Part shown: positions 31,675 to 40,101 of the stretch, piece after piece | Layout: each line of letters opens with the position of its first letter | Numbering within the stretch: the first letter of the stretch is position 1 | NCBI GenBank assembly: GCA_019509785.1 | Contig: JAEKLQ010000021.1 | Coordinates: forward strand, 1-64,000 | Direction: 5' to 3' | DNA length: 64,000 bases | DNA from: Fibrobacterota bacterium | GTDB taxonomy: Bacteria > Fibrobacterota > Fibrobacteria > UBA11236 | The notes under the pieces: generated by a model | Told to the model about the DNA's origin: nothing | Database searches by the model: none | What the model saw: the letters and a program-made list of their open reading frames with translations, nothing else | Translations under genes and position numbers: made by a program

Positions 31675-34600
31675 CTACGGAGTCGTAGGTTGAGGTTGAG
31701 ACTGCGCTTTTTCCACCGGTATAGTCGTGGCGGAAACGGGGGACGTCGTGATAGGGTCGGTAGTTATCGGAGGGCCGATTATGATGCAGCACAGCTTGCA
31801 GCAGGGATAAGCGGCGGTGTAATTAACGTCGGCTGTGACGGGATCCGTGGTGGTCCCGCGGTTGACGTTGAATAAGACCCCATCCTTATTCCATTGCGTG
31901 AATTTAGTACCGGAAGCATTCGTGCTATCGGTTGTGATATTCCACTTGGTGCCGAAGCTGGCAGGGGTGACGACCGAATCCGGTCCAGACCCGACGAGGC
32001 AGAAATGGAGGATACAAAGCCGCGGATCGGTGCAGGTGGTAACTTGGTTCACGCAGAGATCGTGCCCGTAAATCTTCAAGGTAAAAGATCGCACGTCAAA
32101 GGCCGCCGCAACCGTGTGGTTCGCGGCGATCCCCGACAGCGAGTATGTCGAGGTGTTCATCCGGTCGCCGGTGAGGCTCGCCACCACATCGGTTCCGTTG
32201 TCCGTGAAGGCCGAAACCCACACGCCTGTCGAAGGTGAGCCGGAGACCATGGTGATGGCCTGGGTGCTCCCCGAATCCACTTCCGTCGTCCCGACGGGCG
32301 AGATGGTCCCGGTTCCGGTAACGCTGGTCGTAAGCGTATAGGTCTTCAAAAACGTCGCCACCAGGGTATGGCTCTTCGTCACGTTGGTCAGCTTATAGGT
32401 CTTCGGCCCGAACTTCGTCGCCGTGCCGAGGGACGCCAAAGCCGCTCCGCTATCCGTAACCGACAAGATCCGGTATCCTACCAGCGGTGTCAACGTGATC
32501 GAAGTATCCTTCCCATGCTGGATTTGGATGCTGGCATGGTCGAATGCGCCGCCCACGAAGCCCGAAATGGTTCCGGTAATGGTATAGACGTTGATGGCGA
32601 AGGAACCCGTGGCCCGCACCGTCGCGGCCTTTACCGTCAGCTTGGCCGGATTGGCCGTCGAATCCGAAGACCCGGTCCCGAAAGTTCCGGACCCCTCGGT
32701 CAACGCCCACTTGGCGAAATGGAAGCCCGTCGAATCGGGCGCCTTCAGATTGACCACGGCGCCCAGCGGGGCTTCCAGCGAATCGACGACGATGGTCACG
32801 GCTCCGATGGCGCGGGAGACGATGACCTTGGCGCGGCGGACCACTTTCACCGTATAGGTCGACTTGGCTTTGCCGTCTTGGGCGGTCACGACGATCTTGA
32901 AAAGGTTATCGCCCACGTCCAGGGCCAAGGGGCTGCTGACGGTGCCCGAGGTCAAGGCCGTATCGTTCACCGTCAGCTTGGCGGCGGGATGGGATGCGGT
33001 GGGCTTCACGGTGACCGAAGCGACCTTGAAGGCCACGGTGTCGGCGTAGTCGAAGATATCGCTCTTGAAGGACGGCTTGAGGACGAAGCCGGCAGGGTCG
33101 AGTTTAGCGAGGCTGGCATCCGTGCTGGGGGCGCGGGTGACGGCGATGCTGTACGACTTCTGGGTGCCGTCCTGCGCGGTTACCACGATTTCGAAGGCTT
33201 TCAAAGTGGTACCCACGGCCAAGGCGACCGAATCGGAGGACTTGCCCGAGGCGACCGGTTTGCCGTTGATGAGAAGGGAAGCCGCGGGGTCGGTCGTGGT
33301 CGCGACGACTCCCACCAGGCTATCGGTATAGGCTACGGCCATGGAGTAGGCCACGGTCACCGGCTTGAAGGACGGCGTCAAGGTACCGGCCGAGGGGATG
33401 AGGCTCGAGAGATCGTTGTTGGATTTGGACGGCGGGAGCAGGGTCACCACCATGGTGTCTTCCGCGCTGTTGCCGTCGTCATCGGTGACGCGGCCTATCA
33501 CGACGACCTTACCCGTATCGCCCGGCACCACCATGCTGGTATCCTGCTTGCCGAGGTTCAGGAAAGACGCGGAGCCGACCTTGATTTCGCGCTTGGCGAT
33601 CGCGCCGAACTTGTCCGATCCCTTCACCGAGAAATTCACCGGGGAGCCGGCGATGACCGAAATGTCCGGGCCCATATCCGCGGTCGGCGGATCGAGTACG
33701 ACGGTGATGAGGACCGAGTCGGTGCCGGTCTTGCCGGCGTCATCGGTGGCGTAGAGGGTGGCCACGTATTTGCCGGGCGCGGAGTACTTATGCCCGCCCT
33801 TGATGGAAGCGGTGGAATCGTTGGCCTTGATGCTATCGTCGAGCTTTCCGTCGCCATCGTAGTCCCATCCGACCAGGGCCACCTTGCCTTCGGCATCGCG
33901 GACCTTGGCTTCCAGGGCCACGAAGTCGTTGATGGAAACGAGGGTATCCTTGCTCTTGCTTACGGTTTCGGGCGGCTGATTGCCGATGTCGACCGTGACG
34001 GTCGCGACGGCTTCGTTGCCTTCGCTATCGCGCACCAGGAAATGGACTTGGTGGGAACCTTCCTTGGTGAAGGTGGTGGTTTGGGTGGGGAGGTCCGCTA
34101 CGTTGCCCAGGAACGGGCCGGGCAGGCTATCGTCCCAGGTGCTGTCCCCGTCGAGGTCCCATTTGAACATCACGATGGAACCGAACTCCTGGGTGGCCTT
34201 GGGCGAGAAGTCGATGGGGGAATTGACGGCGGCGCCGGACTTGTTGGAGACGGTGAGAACGGGTACGTCGCGTTTGACGCGGATACGCGCGAGCGCGGAA
34301 GCATCGCCGAACTTGGCCATGACCGTGGCGACGCCTTCCTTGAGGCCGTGAACGCGGCCTTGGTCGTCCACCTTCACGACCGCCTCGTCGGAGGAAGACC
34401 AGGCGATTTCCCCGTCCTTGGCGTCCGGCGCGGTGGAAGCCTTGAGAACGCTGTCGGGCCCGCCCAGGTACAGACTGAGGGAATCGGGTTGCAAGGAGAT
34501 GCTGCGGCCGCCTGTCGATCCGATCTGGACAACGATTACGGCCGTTTTGGTGGAGTCGTGCTTGGCCCGGGCCCTGACATGGGCCGTGCCGTTCTTGAGG

Positions 34601-35184
34601 GGGATGACCAGGGCTTCCGAGGAGTTGGGGCCGTTGGGCAAATCCAGGGTGGCGACGGAAGGATCATCGACGGACCAGATGAAGGATTGCTCGGCGAATT
34701 TGGGGAGGATGGCGGCGGTGACCTTGACGGCGGGATCGCCTGCTTGGAGGCTCAAGGATTCGGGGGAGAGTGAGAGCGAGTTGGGAACGGCTCCGGGTTC
34801 GGAGAGGGTGTCCACCACGACTTTGCCGCCTTGGTCGTCGAAGGTGCGGTTTTGATCCGCGCAAAGCGAACCATCTTTGAACCAACCCCGCACGTGGACC
34901 TGGGCGCGGCCGCCCTTGTACTTCGAGGCGTCGAGGCCGTTCAATTCATCCAGCGACTTGAGGGGCCCTTCGAAAAGGGTATCCAGGACCTTGCCCGAGG
35001 TATCCAACAGTTCCACTTGCAGGGTATCGCAATGGGTCCATGCCGAATCGGGCGTCAAATTGAATTTGGTTTCGCCGTCGGCTTGGTTCAATTGGCAGGA
35101 CCAGAAAATGAGGAGGCCGGCGATGGAAGCGAGGGCGGCCAGGGCGAAGGCGCGGAAGCGGAGGGCGGATTTATGGCTGTTCAT
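31675..35184 (-). CDS. Large PKD/Ig-like multidomain lipoprotein (copy 1, lipoprotein partner)
   Basis: The 1169-residue protein begins with a lipoprotein signal (Cys near residue 30, LIFWSC). Then follow a conserved N-terminal domain (~35-130), two BIG_2-type Ig-like domains (~135-305) and PKD-like domains (~310-585, with FKWDLDGDSTWDD and GWDYDGDGKLDD). Two cadherin-like beta-sandwich domains (~590-785) and several InlB/bacterial-repeat domains (~785-1025) come next. The last ~140 residues hold two Cys clusters (CVNQVTTC...C...C and PCCKLCC), unusual for a surface protein. It starts 6 nt after the membrane-protein gene at 35191-35925, and this pair is duplicated at 36131-38147. It is likely an outer-membrane surface adhesin or scaffold; function unknown. 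Confidence 0.8.
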   Translation of the reverse strand: MNSHKSALRFRAFALAALASIAGLLIFWSCQLNQADGETKFNLTPDSAWTHCDTLQVELLDTSGKVLDTLFEGPLKSLDELNGLDASKYKGGRAQVHVRGWFKDGSLCADQNRTFDDQGGKVVVDTLSEPGAVPNSLSLSPESLSLQAGDPAVKVTAAILPKFAEQSFIWSVDDPSVATLDLPNGPNSSEALVIPLKNGTAHVRARAKHDSTKTAVIVVQIGSTGGRSISLQPDSLSLYLGGPDSVLKASTAPDAKDGEIAWSSSDEAVVKVDDQGRVHGLKEGVATVMAKFGDASALARIRVKRDVPVLTVSNKSGAAVNSPIDFSPKATQEFGSIVMFKWDLDGDSTWDDSLPGPFLGNVADLPTQTTTFTKEGSHQVHFLVRDSEGNEAVATVTVDIGNQPPETVSKSKDTLVSINDFVALEAKVRDAEGKVALVGWDYDGDGKLDDSIKANDSTASIKGGHKYSAPGKYVATLYATDDAGKTGTDSVLITVVLDPPTADMGPDISVIAGSPVNFSVKGSDKFGAIAKREIKVGSASFLNLGKQDTSMVVPGDTGKVVVIGRVTDDDGNSAEDTMVVTLLPPSKSNNDLSSLIPSAGTLTPSFKPVTVAYSMAVAYTDSLVGVVATTTDPAASLLINGKPVASGKSSDSVALAVGTTLKAFEIVVTAQDGTQKSYSIAVTRAPSTDASLAKLDPAGFVLKPSFKSDIFDYADTVAFKVASVTVKPTASHPAAKLTVNDTALTSGTVSSPLALDVGDNLFKIVVTAQDGKAKSTYTVKVVRRAKVIVSRAIGAVTIVVDSLEAPLGAVVNLKAPDSTGFHFAKWALTEGSGTFGTGSSDSTANPAKLTVKAATVRATGSFAINVYTITGTISGFVGGAFDHASIQIQHGKDTSITLTPLVGYRILSVTDSGAALASLGTATKFGPKTYKLTNVTKSHTLVATFLKTYTLTTSVTGTGTISPVGTTEVDSGSTQAITMVSGSPSTGVWVSAFTDNGTDVVASLTGDRMNTSTYSLSGIAANHTVAAAFDVRSFTLKIYGHDLCVNQVTTCTDPRLCILHFCLVGSGPDSVVTPASFGTKWNITTDSTNASGTKFTQWNKDGVLFNVNRGTTTDPVTADVNYTAAYPCCKLCCIIIGPPITTDPITTSPVSATTIPVEKAQSQPQPTTP

Positions 35185-35190
35185 GACGTC

Positions 35191-35925
35191 CTACTTGGCG
35201 GCCTGGGTTTGGTTCGGAATGGTGATGGTATGCGTCGCAGGGGTATTGTCCGAGGTCGAAATGAGATAGACCACGGTTCCGGCCGTAATCAGGCCAACGC
35301 CTCCCGCCACCCACATGCCTTTGCTCTTCCAGAAGGATTCCTTTTCCTGGTGCGTCGCATCCTGGTATTCCTTGGACGGGCCGGCAGGCTGGGAAGCGGC
35401 GGCCTGTTCGGTATGGGCGGCGGAGCCGGTAGCGGGCTTTTCGGGCGAGGAGATCTGGGTGCTGTCGACGCCGAAGCCCTTCTGGCGGGCCACGAACTCC
35501 TTGCGCACCTTTTCGAAGATGCGATCGATTTCATCGCTGACGAACATATCGACCAGCTCGGCGGACGGCATCATTTCCAGCAGGCGGTACATGTAGTACT
35601 TCCCCTTCTCGCGCGTTTGCGGATTGGCCGAATAGACCACGGCCAAATGCTTGGCGATGAAGATGCTGTCGCCGCGCGAATATGTCTTATTGGATTTGGT
35701 GAAGGTCTCGATCAGCTTGGTGACCTTTTCGAAATCCCCTTCGTTGTAGGCGTTGTGGATGGCCTTCTGATCGAGCACCGTTCCCGTAGAAGCCTGGGCG
35801 GGAGCAGGTTGGGCGGCGGACGCGGCGGCCGGCTGGGGCGTGGGCGAAGATTGGCCCGCGAAAACCGAGGCGACGAGGAAAAAGATCAAGGTAGACCGGA
35901 TCAGGACGGTGAGGACGCTATGCAT
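35191..35925 (-). CDS. Conserved-domain membrane protein (copy 1, paralogue of 37137-38147)
   Basis: The 244-residue product has a signal peptide or anchor (~1-25) and a short Pro/Ala linker. A helical domain at ~50-155 contains HNAYNEGDFEKV, DSIFIAKHLAVVYSANP, KYYMYRLLEMMP and DEIDRIFEKVRKEF. A Ser/Ala-rich linker and one membrane helix (~200-222) then a Thr-rich tail follow. The domain could be a TPR-like helical repeat, but no standard consensus fits. The same domain, linker and C-terminal helix occur in the gene at 37137-38147. Each copy is followed by a PKD lipoprotein gene 4-6 nt downstream. An upstream non-ATG start would add 14 residues; the ATG at 35925 suits the signal peptide. Confidence 0.75.
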   Translation of the reverse strand: MHSVLTVLIRSTLIFFLVASVFAGQSSPTPQPAAASAAQPAPAQASTGTVLDQKAIHNAYNEGDFEKVTKLIETFTKSNKTYSRGDSIFIAKHLAVVYSANPQTREKGKYYMYRLLEMMPSAELVDMFVSDEIDRIFEKVRKEFVARQKGFGVDSTQISSPEKPATGSAAHTEQAAASQPAGPSKEYQDATHQEKESFWKSKGMWVAGGVGLITAGTVVYLISTSDNTPATHTITIPNQTQAAK

Positions 35926-36130
35926 ACGATATTCCCAGGAAGGAAGGATGATGCCGAAGGCTCGCAAAATCTAGTTATTCAGGAACTCCGGCCCATTAGA
36001 TCCCGCCGGCCGTAACGAGCCCCTAAATCCTCCACCCTTGTCTTCCGGGCACGGGTTTCCCCGGAAGATCGCCTGAAACCATTCCCACGCGGCTTGCCGG
36101 CCGCTCCTGGGGTATGGAAGATGATCGGCT

Positions 36131-37132
36131 TTAAGGGGTAACCGAGGAATCGGGAAGATTTCCGGAACCGGAATTTCCGGCAGGGGTCACGTGCACCACC
36201 AAGGTGTCGTAGGCCATCAGGTTATCCGAATCGATCACCCGCAGGATGCAGGTGAGATCGCCGGAGGACTTCGGGACCGGGAGGGTGGTCTCGGTTTGCG
36301 GCACGTTCGCGAACGGCGCTCCGTCAAAGCTCCAGGCGCGGTAGACGATGGGCCCGAACCCATCCTCGCCGCGCGCATGCAATAGGATTACCCCGCCTAC
36401 GGGGACCGTAGTGTCCTTACCGGCGTCGGCCCAGGGAGGATCGAGCTCCACATTTACCTTCACTTTGGCTTCCGCGAGCCCTTTCTTCAGATCCCAGACG
36501 CGCAGGGTGCATACGCGTTGGCCGGAGTCGGCATAGCGGACGCCGAAACGGATGCGGGCCTGGGAGCCGAGGATGACGGCCGAGTCCTTGGGGCCGTCGC
36601 CGCATTGCCAAGCATAAGAGGCGAGGTCCCCGTCGGCATCATAGACTTCCGTCGTGAGAGGCACGCTGTCGCGGATGGAGACCGCGGTGTCGGAAGGGAA
36701 CGAGGATAGGAAGGGCGGATGGGACGCCCCGGCCGCGGTTCCCGGATCCGGAACGGCCTTGGCCGAATCGTCGAATCGTTCGATGCGCAAGTCGAGAAGC
36801 CGCTGGGTGCTGCCTTCGTAAAGGCGGGTCTCGCGGTAAGCCAGGCGGGAGCCATGGTAGCCCTCGATCAGGATGCGCGCGGTTTCGCCGGAGTAGCTGC
36901 GCGCGGGCAGGCGCTCCAGGCGCTTGAGGTCCGGCAGGGTATCGTCATAAAGGGTCGCGACGCGTCGGCCGGTGGTATCGTCCAGATTGATGGCGATGCG
37001 GGAATAATCGAGGAGATTCGGTCCGGCCTCGAGGCGGAAATAAGTCTCGGGCTCGGTCGAGTTCAGGCAAGCCGATACGCAAAGCGATGCCGCCGCCGCC
37101 AGCAAGCGCAGGAATCCATTAAGAGACCCCAT
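36131..37132 (-). CDS. PKD-like lipoprotein (copy 2, lipoprotein partner)
   Basis: The 333-residue protein has a lipoprotein signal (AAAASLCVSAC, Cys near residue 22). Its N-terminal domain (~25-125) matches that of the large lipoprotein at 31675-35184 in order and pattern (LDDTTGRRVATLYDDTLPDL compared with LLDTSGKVLDTLFEGPLKSL). Two PKD-like segments follow (~145-225 and ~230-315, with DADGDLASYAWQCGDG and DPPWADAGKDTTVP). It lacks the BIG_2, cadherin-like and Cys-rich parts of copy 1. The called ATG lies 4 nt after the preceding stop; an ATG at 37171 with a GGGAAAG box ahead of it would overlap the upstream gene and is a real alternative. Confidence 0.75.
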   Translation of the reverse strand: MGSLNGFLRLLAAAASLCVSACLNSTEPETYFRLEAGPNLLDYSRIAINLDDTTGRRVATLYDDTLPDLKRLERLPARSYSGETARILIEGYHGSRLAYRETRLYEGSTQRLLDLRIERFDDSAKAVPDPGTAAGASHPPFLSSFPSDTAVSIRDSVPLTTEVYDADGDLASYAWQCGDGPKDSAVILGSQARIRFGVRYADSGQRVCTLRVWDLKKGLAEAKVKVNVELDPPWADAGKDTTVPVGGVILLHARGEDGFGPIVYRAWSFDGAPFANVPQTETTLPVPKSSGDLTCILRVIDSDNLMAYDTLVVHVTPAGNSGSGNLPDSSVTP

Positions 37133-37136
37133 GCCG

Positions 37137-38147
37137 TTAGGGGCTCTTAGACAAGCTCGCGGGAACCGCATAGGTCTTTCCCGGCCCGCCGCTTTCGGAG
37201 CCGGCGTGCCAAAGGGTGAAGGCGATGGCCGCGATCGCGGCTCCGCCGCCGATCCAAACTCCCGGCTTTTTCCAGACGGGATTGGACGTGTCGGACTCGG
37301 AGACGTTCTCGACCCCGGCTACCGAAGGCGCCGCCAGGTCGACCGTGGGCCGGGACGGCGAAGAGTCGAAGGCGGAATCGACCGCCGGCGCTCGGGCGGG
37401 TTCGGAACCGGAAGCGCGCGGGGAATGATCGGCAAGGGGCGCATCCCAAGGCCTGTATGGCTTGGCGGGAACCGCTTGGGGGCGGACGGCCGAGCGAACC
37501 TTGGGCGCGCCGGCCCGGCCCCTAGGCCGGACGGCGACCCTGGCCGGCAAGGTCCAGTCGTCGGAATAAGCGGGTTCGGAAGATTCACTCGGGGGCGCGG
37601 CCGGAATCGCACCTGCGGTTGAAGAATGGGAGGCGGGCGACATCGCGGCGATTGACGCTGCGGCCGTAGCCGGCGCGGCGGACAGCGGAGCCGATGACTT
37701 GCGCGGCGCCACGGGTACGGTCCGGGCAATGGCCGCGGAAGCGGGGGCCGGGGTTTTGCCTTGGCTGTCCGAAGCGCGCAGATCATGCTCCTTGCGGACT
37801 TTCTCGAACACCGCATCCACCTCATCGCCGACGTACATATCCAGCAAATCGGCGCGCGGGGAAAGATCGAGCAGGCGGAACATATGGTAGCGGCCCAGTT
37901 CGCGCGTGGCCGGCGCCGCCGCCAGCACAACGGCGAGATGTTTCTCCGCGAAAATGCTGTCGTCCTTGACGCAGGCGCATTGGCCCTTTCCGTACGGCTC
38001 CAGTTCGCGCAAGATCCGCTCGAATTCCCCGTCGTGGTACAAGGCGTGGATGCGGGCGCGATCGAGGGAACGGCGCGGCGCGGCCCAAGCCATGCTCGCG
38101 CAGAGGAGGGCGGCGGAAAGGATGAGGATGCGGGCCGGCAGGGCCAT
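37137..38147 (-). CDS. Conserved-domain membrane protein (copy 2, paralogue of 35191-35925)
   Basis: The 336-residue protein has a signal peptide (residues 1-22, ending MAWAAP). The helical domain at ~27-130 matches copy 1 nearly motif for motif (HALYHDGEFERI, DSIFAEKHLAVVLAAAP, RYHMFRLLDLSP, DEVDAVFEKVRKE). Between it and the C-terminal membrane helix (~300-318) lies a Pro/Ala/Arg-rich linker of about 165 residues, much longer than in copy 1. It could span the periplasm. AAGGGAA precedes the ATG. The lipoprotein gene of the pair follows 4 nt later. Function unknown. Confidence 0.75.
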   Translation of the reverse strand: MALPARILILSAALLCASMAWAAPRRSLDRARIHALYHDGEFERILRELEPYGKGQCACVKDDSIFAEKHLAVVLAAAPATRELGRYHMFRLLDLSPRADLLDMYVGDEVDAVFEKVRKEHDLRASDSQGKTPAPASAAIARTVPVAPRKSSAPLSAAPATAAASIAAMSPASHSSTAGAIPAAPPSESSEPAYSDDWTLPARVAVRPRGRAGAPKVRSAVRPQAVPAKPYRPWDAPLADHSPRASGSEPARAPAVDSAFDSSPSRPTVDLAAPSVAGVENVSESDTSNPVWKKPGVWIGGGAAIAAIAFTLWHAGSESGGPGKTYAVPASLSKSP

Positions 38148-38388: not shown

Positions 38389-40101
38389 TCAGAGCGAGTA
38401 TTTGATCTTGAAAAGCCCCGAACCGATGCCGGCGGGCACGGAGATGAATTGGCTGTAGGCGTCCTGCCTTTGCGAGGCCTGGGCTGACCAGATCGTCTTG
38501 CCCTGGAGGTCGTACAAGGTGAAGCCGCGGTATCCGAGGGGAACTTCGATCTGCCGCTCGGAATCCCAGCCCAGGTGGATCAGCCCGCTCTTGCCCGACT
38601 GGAAAGGCGAAGCCATATCCTTATGGATCGAGACCGCCGGGGCGCAGGGGGCGCCCGTGTAGTCGAGCCGGAAGATCTTCGGCGGGGTGGAAGAGAAAGG
38701 CACCGGCATCGATCCGTTGGAGGTGAAATTGTAGAGGTTGTAATAGTCCAAGACGTACATCACCCCGTCGGGCCCGATATAGATTTCCAACGGGTGGATG
38801 AAGCCGCCGTTGGCGCCGGTATAGAACCGGGTCCGGTTCAGCACCTTGGTGTTATCCGCGTTCAGGGTATGCGCGTAAATGGTGCCGGCGTTCTTCCAAT
38901 CGGTCACGAACCACACGCCGTCGAATTGGCCCGGCAGCTTCTTCGTCGAAGTCTGGGCCGGGTTGTAGCGGTAGATGGGCCCGGTGATGGCGGCGGCCTG
39001 GGTGTAGCCGTAGATCGCCCCTTGCGCGGGCGGCAGCTTCTGGACGCCGGTATTGTGGATGCCCGTATTCATGGGGGCGGCGGGGTCCTTGACGGGCGCG
39101 GCCTTGTACTGGTAATGCGGATTGCCTTCGGCGCCGGCGAAGTAAGGCCACCCCATGAAGCCCGGATGGGTCACGAGATTGAGCTCTTCCGTTTGCCAGC
39201 CCATGTCCGGGCCCACATCGCCCCAGGTCAAGAGGCCCTTGGCGTCGTCGACGGAAATGGTGTAGGGATTGCGATGGCCCATGGTGTAGATCTCCGGCCG
39301 GATCTTGGCGAGTTCGGCGGGAGAATACATGGATGCGTAGTAATCCTTGAGGTTCCCGGGGGGAACGGTGTAACCCCCGTCGGCGGTGGGATGGATGCGC
39401 AGGATCTTGCCGCGCAAATCGTTCGAGTTGGCCGAATGCCCTTCGTCATCGGCATCGGGATAGCGGGTGTCGATGTAAGCATTCGAATCCGCATCCCCGG
39501 AAGCGGGATTCAGGGTGTTATTGCCGACGGAGATCCACAGATCCCCCTTGCCGTCGATGCGGATGTCCCCGCCGGTATGGCAGCAGTAGTTCTTCTGGGT
39601 GGGCCAGGACAGGATCACCTTCTCGGAACCCATGTCCAATTGGTTCCCCGTAACCGTGAAGCGCGAGAGATGGGAGGAGTCCACCGCCGCCATCTGGTAA
39701 TCGACGTAGAGCCAGTGGTTGGTCTCGAAGTTGGGATCGATGGTGAAGCCGACCAATCCGAATTCGTTATTGACGTTGTTCATGCTCATATGCAGCGGGG
39801 AAGTGGTCGGAAAGGAATTGATCTTCCCGAGCTTGGTCACCGTCGCGCCGTCCGCGCTCAGCATCTTGATGGAGCCGCCCCGTTCCGAGAAGTAAATCGA
39901 TCCGTCCTTGGCCACCGCGAAGCGGGTGACTTCGTCCAGATTCGGGTCTTTAGTCTTGTCCAGCACCGAGACCTTATTGAAATTGGCCTCCGTCACATCC
40001 GTGCAGTTGGGCGCGCTGAACTTATCCTGGCCCCGCGCGGTCCCGAATCCTACCCCTGCCGACACCAACGCCGCCAGAGCCCATTTGCCATTCCTGCCCA
40101 T
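38389..40101 (-). CDS. Secreted PQQ-type sugar dehydrogenase-like beta-propeller protein
   Basis: The 570-residue protein has a signal peptide (~1-25, ending TARGQ). A six-bladed propeller of the glucose/sorbosone dehydrogenase (GSDH) family follows, with NNEFGLVGFTIDPNF, YCCHTGGDIRIDGKGDLWISVGNN, SNDLRGKILRIHP, MGHRNPYTISVD and HPLEIYIGPDGVMYVLDY. These hold the PQQ- and Ca-binding positions of the family, though activity cannot be judged by eye. After residue ~500 comes a C-terminal beta domain with LYDLQGK, like that of the GH44 protein, probably a sorting or attachment domain. The ATG at 40101 has GAGAGG 8 nt ahead; the frame is open upstream. Confidence 0.85.
   Translation of the reverse strand: MGRNGKWALAALVSAGVGFGTARGQDKFSAPNCTDVTEANFNKVSVLDKTKDPNLDEVTRFAVAKDGSIYFSERGGSIKMLSADGATVTKLGKINSFPTTSPLHMSMNNVNNEFGLVGFTIDPNFETNHWLYVDYQMAAVDSSHLSRFTVTGNQLDMGSEKVILSWPTQKNYCCHTGGDIRIDGKGDLWISVGNNTLNPASGDADSNAYIDTRYPDADDEGHSANSNDLRGKILRIHPTADGGYTVPPGNLKDYYASMYSPAELAKIRPEIYTMGHRNPYTISVDDAKGLLTWGDVGPDMGWQTEELNLVTHPGFMGWPYFAGAEGNPHYQYKAAPVKDPAAPMNTGIHNTGVQKLPPAQGAIYGYTQAAAITGPIYRYNPAQTSTKKLPGQFDGVWFVTDWKNAGTIYAHTLNADNTKVLNRTRFYTGANGGFIHPLEIYIGPDGVMYVLDYYNLYNFTSNGSMPVPFSSTPPKIFRLDYTGAPCAPAVSIHKDMASPFQSGKSGLIHLGWDSERQIEVPLGYRGFTLYDLQGKTIWSAQASQRQDAYSQFISVPAGIGSGLFKIKYSL

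Follow-up and report, generated by a model that had tools for sequence, protein, structure and literature searches.

A lineage-expanded family of membrane protein-lipoprotein gene pairs in Fibrobacterota

The Fibrobacterota are a little-known bacterial group of soil and groundwater. In one of their genomes (GenBank assembly GCA_019509785.1), a 64,000-nucleotide stretch of contig JAEKLQ010000021.1 (positions 1 to 64,000, hereafter the window) carries two adjacent pairs of genes, A1-A2 and B1-B2, in each of which an exported protein with a helical domain and a C-terminal membrane helix is followed directly by a lipoprotein. What kind of unit is such a pair, and is the tandem a local curiosity or a sample of something larger? 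We find that the pairs belong to an undescribed, lineage-expanded family assembled from known kinds of domain and tied to a conserved phospho-signalling locus.

All four genes lie on the minus strand, and their codon usage marks them as real coding genes. A1 (37137..38147, 336 residues) encodes a signal peptide, the helical domain (37770..38066; profile match, E 4.8e-40), which is TPR-like as argued below, a long Ala/Pro-rich linker, a C-terminal membrane helix (37203..37259; VWIGGGAAIAAIAFTLWHA) and a short tail; B1 (35191..35925, 244 residues) has a signal peptide, the same helical domain (35470..35775; E 2.4e-48), a linker, a C-terminal membrane helix (35260..35316; MWVAGGVGLITAGTVVYLI) and a short tail. 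Lipoprotein A2 (36131..37132, 333 residues, lipobox cysteine at residue 22) contains a predicted immunoglobulin (Ig)-like lipoprotein N-domain (LPN; 36797..37072; profile match, E 9.8e-25) and a K319L-like PKD domain (PF22352; 36449..36691; E 4.3e-7, which exceeds the curated cut-off). In lipoprotein B2 (31675..35184, 1169 residues) the LPN (34807..35103; E 5.4e-29) begins at the lipid-modified cysteine, and Pfam identifies a Big_2, two PKD and two cadherin-like domains together with a weak InlB-B-repeat-like stretch. A first-pass annotation of the window had described two such pairs with shared N-terminal domains and matching lipoprotein starts, and this is borne out: gene calls and codon usage confirm the pairs, with gaps of 4 nt (A1-A2) and 6 nt (B1-B2), the helical domains of A1 and B1 are identical at 50 of 105 residues (48%, E 1e-29), and the lipoprotein N-termini share 27% identity over 88 residues (E 8e-7), their PKD parts aligning too. 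The strong difference that it noted between the domain-to-helix linkers also holds, although these measure 51 (B1) and 170 residues (A1) rather than about 45 and 165.

The two copies are present as described, but they are two among many, and the tandem does not stand alone. Searched in tblastn fashion, the window's own 5.4-Mb genome proved to hold 12 copies of the helical domain. When a profile of this domain was run against 168 Fibrobacterota genomes, five congeners had 9-19 copies each, one order-level relative had four, and two genomes of the sister genus had one apiece. Positional orthologues of both window copies occur in all six genomes of the genus, and in a tree built on 110 columns each window copy clusters with those from the other five (support 99/86 for copy B and 99/98 for the six copy-A rows), not with its neighbour, which rules out an isolated tandem duplication; the two window copies are old. 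Orthologous lipoproteins can be aligned over most of their length, mature copy-B forms spanning 857 to 1488 residues, and the copy-A region past the helical domain (linker, helix and tail) varies from 112 to 210 residues among orthologues. At L110:8024-8676, in the order-level relative, one helical-domain gene runs over two reading frames, whether through a frameshift or because the assembly is wrong there.

How constant is the pairing? Among 72 genes encoding the complete series of signal peptide, helical domain, linker and membrane helix, 57 have an LPN lipoprotein as the next gene on the same strand, and another lipoprotein follows in six more (L079, L081, L082, L083, L110 and L127); of the remainder, one is truncated at the end of its contig and five adjoin an FHA gene. 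By the same crude test, a lipobox is found in 5.8% of the other genes in these loci. Chance resemblance is excluded, because paralogues exist and because 57/72 is set against this background. Start and stop codons overlap in many of the pairs. The prediction of a recurring two-gene unit in Fibrobacterota, one conserved module with interchangeable stalks, is thus upheld by the pairing and by the varied stalk domains of the lipoproteins, and a tabulation of next genes shows most homologues followed by an Ig/PKD-type lipoprotein.

Such constancy might reflect nothing past co-expression, the two being generic envelope proteins that duplicate together through adjacency. The helical-domain tree and the LPN tree are correlated (r 0.55, against a maximum among 2000 shuffles of 0.28 overall and 0.23 within genomes), which shows joint inheritance, not binding, and correlated trees follow from linkage alone. 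Lipoproteins of the family that lack any partner, and second helical-domain genes that stand beside FHA-SLT and transglycosylase genes with no lipoprotein behind them, are likewise what adjacency without partnership would predict. Yet the order of membrane protein then lipoprotein is kept beyond these 57 units, in the order-level relative and in distant loci, and where the helical domain has been lost, a partner consisting of signal peptide, linker, helix and tail is still there. We consider this explanation quite improbable.

What, then, is the helical domain? The first-pass annotation could not name the conserved core; neither Pfam nor NCBIfam offers a family name for A1 or B1, but the profile converges on tetratricopeptide repeats (TPRs). 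A1 and B1 have no Pfam TPR match, the window copies falling under every TPR cut-off, but a few of the 87 helical-domain members reach TPR_2 (3.5e-6) and TPR_6 (8.4e-5); a member at locus L113 gives a TPR match of 1.3e-5 (25.3 bits, under the cut-off of 27), the profile touches designed TPRs at 0.0027, and a recognisable TPR motif is present in distant homologues. The AlphaFold2 model (from B1; predicted local distance difference test score, pLDDT, 91) has five helices, including the stacked antiparallel helix pairs by which TPRs are judged. Its top Foldseek match is BamD (probability 0.99, template-modelling score 0.57, E 0.24), and the remaining matches are largely TPR/PPR-type alpha solenoids, among them AspH, TadD and the TPR folds of AimR/NprR; no E-value is significant. 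Because the Foldseek, TPR_2 and TPR_6 matches, the contact with designed TPRs and the motif in distant homologues point the same way, we call the domain a probable degenerate TPR-like five-helix bundle; a novel helical fold, considered earlier, was dropped on these grounds and on the five-helix model. The likeness to BamD and other periplasmic TPR proteins lies in the helix-turn-helix bundle and in the profile and distant members matching TPR_2 and TPR_6. The window copies differ from them in scoring under TPR cut-offs, in having five helices only and in ending in a membrane helix instead of being lipoproteins; BamD carries five TPRs on a lipid anchor within the BAM complex, whereas A1 and B1 lack a lipobox, so that the resemblance is one of fold only.

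That the nearest structural relative of the TPR-like domain is a component of an assembly machine, and that each membrane protein is paired one-to-one with a lipoprotein gene, often translationally coupled to it, would suit a dedicated biogenesis factor: a chaperone or export adaptor reserved for its own lipoprotein, which it would bring to the outer membrane or the surface without becoming part of the final structure. A single helix, however, cannot itself translocate a protein, partner-less lipoproteins of the family exist, and some partners have lost the TPR-like domain. This role seems to us doubtful.

The lipoprotein partner is defined by its N-domain. The LPN profile was trained on nine own-genome copies that included both window lipoproteins, which it recovers, as training-set members, at E 1.5e-32 and 2.1e-31. 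On iteration it reaches about 60 lipoproteins. Matches to the LPN profile are restricted to the window genus (10-19 per genome), apart from one weak match in the order-level relative. Assignment to a known domain was rejected, since Pfam gives no match and the sequence matches in the PDB are chance ones. The AlphaFold2 model of the B2 domain is a beta sandwich (pLDDT 79) with Foldseek likenesses to FnIII modules, SpyCatcher, CopC and a Bacteroides adhesin, none with a significant E-value; as modelled, the LPN is an Ig/FnIII-like sandwich. In at least 90% of 58 aligned LPN sequences the lipidated cysteine is present, behind a signal peptide with a lipobox. Beyond this base the proteins vary: across 57 lipoproteins the stalks contain Big_13 (29), Big_2 (27), cadherin-like (22) and PKD_4 (20) domains; a few have LamG, Y_Y_Y, BNR-type or beta-helix domains. 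The earlier label of PKD lipoprotein therefore describes 20 of the 57, the other three kinds being as common or commoner.

Our preferred explanation, to which we give about an even chance (roughly 0.5), is that each pair is a modular envelope display unit in which the first protein is the dedicated envelope partner of the second. The first protein would be exported, its TPR-like domain tethered to a membrane by one C-terminal helix and a flexible linker of 10-170 residues (median 44 in the family). The second is a lipoprotein with its Ig-like N-domain directly behind the lipid anchor; on this base sits a stalk that differs from one protein to the next and can be built of Ig, PKD, cadherin-like, lectin or propeller domains. 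The TPR-like domain, the helix with its tail, or both may dock on the base of the lipoprotein and so connect it with components of the inner envelope. The stalk would project outward to bind polymers or neighbouring proteins, in an adhesive or scaffold role. A periplasmic location of the TPR-like domain is supported by the signal peptide and by relatives in which the domain is fused to an outer-membrane-barrel-like domain, one such gene per genome in the window genus (OMP_b-brl, 2.6e-5, under its cut-off). These fusion genes (L016, L063, L066, L076, L131 and L133) are followed by a heptosyltransferase-like gene, and most are preceded by a sigma-70-like gene. Proteomics of F. succinogenes offers an analogy only: TPR proteins have been proposed there as scaffolds of surface complexes (PMC6851124). 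These are likewise exported TPR proteins of the same phylum; in the sister-genus genomes the helical-domain profile picked up no more than a single copy each, and that with a different architecture.

Several observations weigh against this display-unit explanation. The side of the C-terminal helix facing the N-terminus is the more positive in 52 of 71 sequences and the less positive in six, a bias opposed to the positive-inside rule for a protein with an exported N-domain; it fits none of the explanations considered here well. The Bacteroidota lipoprotein surface-export signal (LES), a K-(D/E)2 or S-D-D-type motif at positions +2 to +6, has no exact match in the family, where C-x-K-(D/E)2 (PMC5080379) is absent. 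Linkage alone can yield paired trees, and the neighbours of the dispersed cassettes have no single common function, most being unrelated housekeeping genes. Finally, several family lipoproteins have no partner at all, and eight have one without the helical domain: at L152, L180 and L186 the preceding protein, about 100 residues long, consists solely of a signal peptide, a short linker, the membrane helix and a tail; in four cases the partner is longer and its middle part is unrelated, and in one it is a protein with another body. The TPR-like domain thus cannot be the docking site in every pair, nor is the helical domain the irreducible core of the unit; the constant part of the first protein may instead be the helix. 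The tail behind that helix is 2-27 residues long (median 16). Tails often terminate in a K-x-Y-x-V-P-like motif, as seen across the two window helices and 69 relatives.

The acidic residues of these lipoproteins invite comparison with glycan-binding lipoproteins of the Bacteroidota. At +4 to +10 they are enriched in 49 family members (0.22-0.39 per position, versus 0-0.14 in 29 other lipoproteins), a bias that recalls the LES without matching its consensus. Sus/SGBP-type lipoproteins share with the family a lipid anchor, an Ig-like base, variable distal modules that include LamG lectins and acidic residues past the lipidated cysteine, but among the neighbour families listed for the cassettes there is no clear SusC/SusD-type one. 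None of the 25 commonest neighbour families (160 matched in all) is a TonB-dependent receptor or SusD. A 3-keto-disaccharide hydrolase accounts for five of 131 representative neighbours, a slight excess given that the own genome holds 17 such genes; with so weak a hydrolase signal and mostly housekeeping neighbours, a polysaccharide-utilisation locus was dropped as an interpretation.

Where did the cassettes come from? Searches with profiles of the family also pick up distant copies elsewhere in the phylum, in other families. At 12 of these loci the helical-domain gene is closely preceded by a Ser/Thr kinase gene on the same strand, in a few with an FHA gene in between, and genes for a lipoprotein and an FHA-GAF-sigma54 activator stand with it in varying order. 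Pfam analysis of 44 neighbours at the distant loci gave 14 Pkinase, 12 PEGA and 10 sigma54-activator proteins. Loci with a Ser/Thr kinase-PEGA protein, a TPR-like membrane protein, a short lipoprotein and an FHA-GAF-sigma54 activator are L113, L115, L155, L156, L159-L162, L164-L166 and L187; the TPR-like protein of this type has two membrane helices in most cases, and a LamG protein is often next. In the open-access literature searched we found no description of this kinase-PEGA/FHA-GAF-sigma54 locus of Fibrobacterota. Three bridging loci, all in the window's genus, tie the cassettes to it together with the distant homologues: L167 has the PEGA-like end of an upstream protein, a helical-domain gene, an LPN lipoprotein and then an opposed FHA-type gene; L150, in the window's own genome, combines an old-type helical domain, an LPN lipoprotein and an FHA-GAF-sigma54 gene; and at L112 an old and a new pair are adjacent, beside an FHA-type gene. 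These gene orders are most simply explained if the dispersed cassettes began as copies of the kinase-linked locus and lost its kinase and regulator. Most likely they descend from the membrane-protein/lipoprotein half of the phylum-wide locus, the pair having been copied some 10-19 times in one Fibrobacterota genus and dispersed, with the direction of descent inferred from the present arrangements.

This ancestry bears on function, as the pairs could be envelope sensors in which a polymer or strain on the outside is detected by the lipoprotein, the TPR membrane protein passes the signal on through the envelope and a kinase/FHA-sigma54 pathway responds, the cassettes acting as extra receptors that feed a shared pathway. 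The distant homologues do adjoin Ser/Thr kinase-PEGA and FHA-GAF-sigma54 activator genes, of whose loci they are the TPR membrane protein and lipoprotein, and the same-genus bridging loci keep the FHA regulator beside the pair; an extracytoplasmic function (ECF) sigma gene immediately precedes one cassette, and one lipoprotein follows a sigma/anti-sigma/caspase operon. Against this, the dispersed cassettes as a rule have no adjacent kinase or FHA regulator, a regulator standing near isolated ones only (neither kind is present beside the pairs in the window's gene list), and the tail past the helix is too short to hold a signalling domain. We judge a sensor role unlikely. Also improbable is the specific proposal that Fibrobacterota have an undescribed kinase-PEGA/FHA-sigma54 pathway of envelope signalling in which the pair makes up the receptor half, multiplied in one genus to 10-19 interchangeable surface receptors, each with its transmembrane partner; on this proposal the helix might even lie in the outer membrane, which would account for the reversed charge bias.

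Of the surroundings, the gene upstream of the window tandem (38389..40101, minus strand) encodes a secreted protein resembling glucose/sorbosone dehydrogenases (GSDH, E 3.6e-24), and related genes stand upstream of the A/B tandem in genomes G155, G157 and G159; it is a syntenic neighbour, for which we do not claim membership of the unit. The sigma genes mentioned above are at L017:7959-10521, where an ECF sigma-70 gene lies immediately upstream of the cassette, and at L154:3631-8508 in the own genome, an apparent operon of an ECF-type sigma factor (assigned by reading), a zf-HC2 anti-sigma factor, a caspase-like protein and an LPN lipoprotein. Helical-domain membrane proteins at L015:4117-13829 and relatives (L067, L132, L135 and L136) lie between a transglycosylase gene (PF00912) and an FHA-SLT lytic transglycosylase gene, which suggests a link of this subgroup to peptidoglycan. 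In a further group (L020, L086, L090, L091, L093, L094, L104 and L106), one gene per genome in the window genus and in two sister-genus genomes, the protein continues past the helical domain for about 260 unnamed residues and finishes in a membrane helix, and ParA-like and MurA-like genes are nearby; Pfam finds no match in the L020 protein, and an assignment of the extension as CsgG plus PEGA was withdrawn for want of Pfam backing.

We found no description of the cassette in the open-access literature searched, where absence is no proof. The analysis defines an unnamed, lineage-expanded cassette family in a nearly uncultured branch of the Fibrobacterota and connects it to a phylum-wide phospho-signalling locus. 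By their predicted function the cassettes would supply these bacteria with swappable envelope or surface proteins and, if the pairs are surface units, would offer roughly 60 one-to-one protein pairs as a natural set for studying the specificity of docking and a handle on how such bacteria may attach to or sense polymers.

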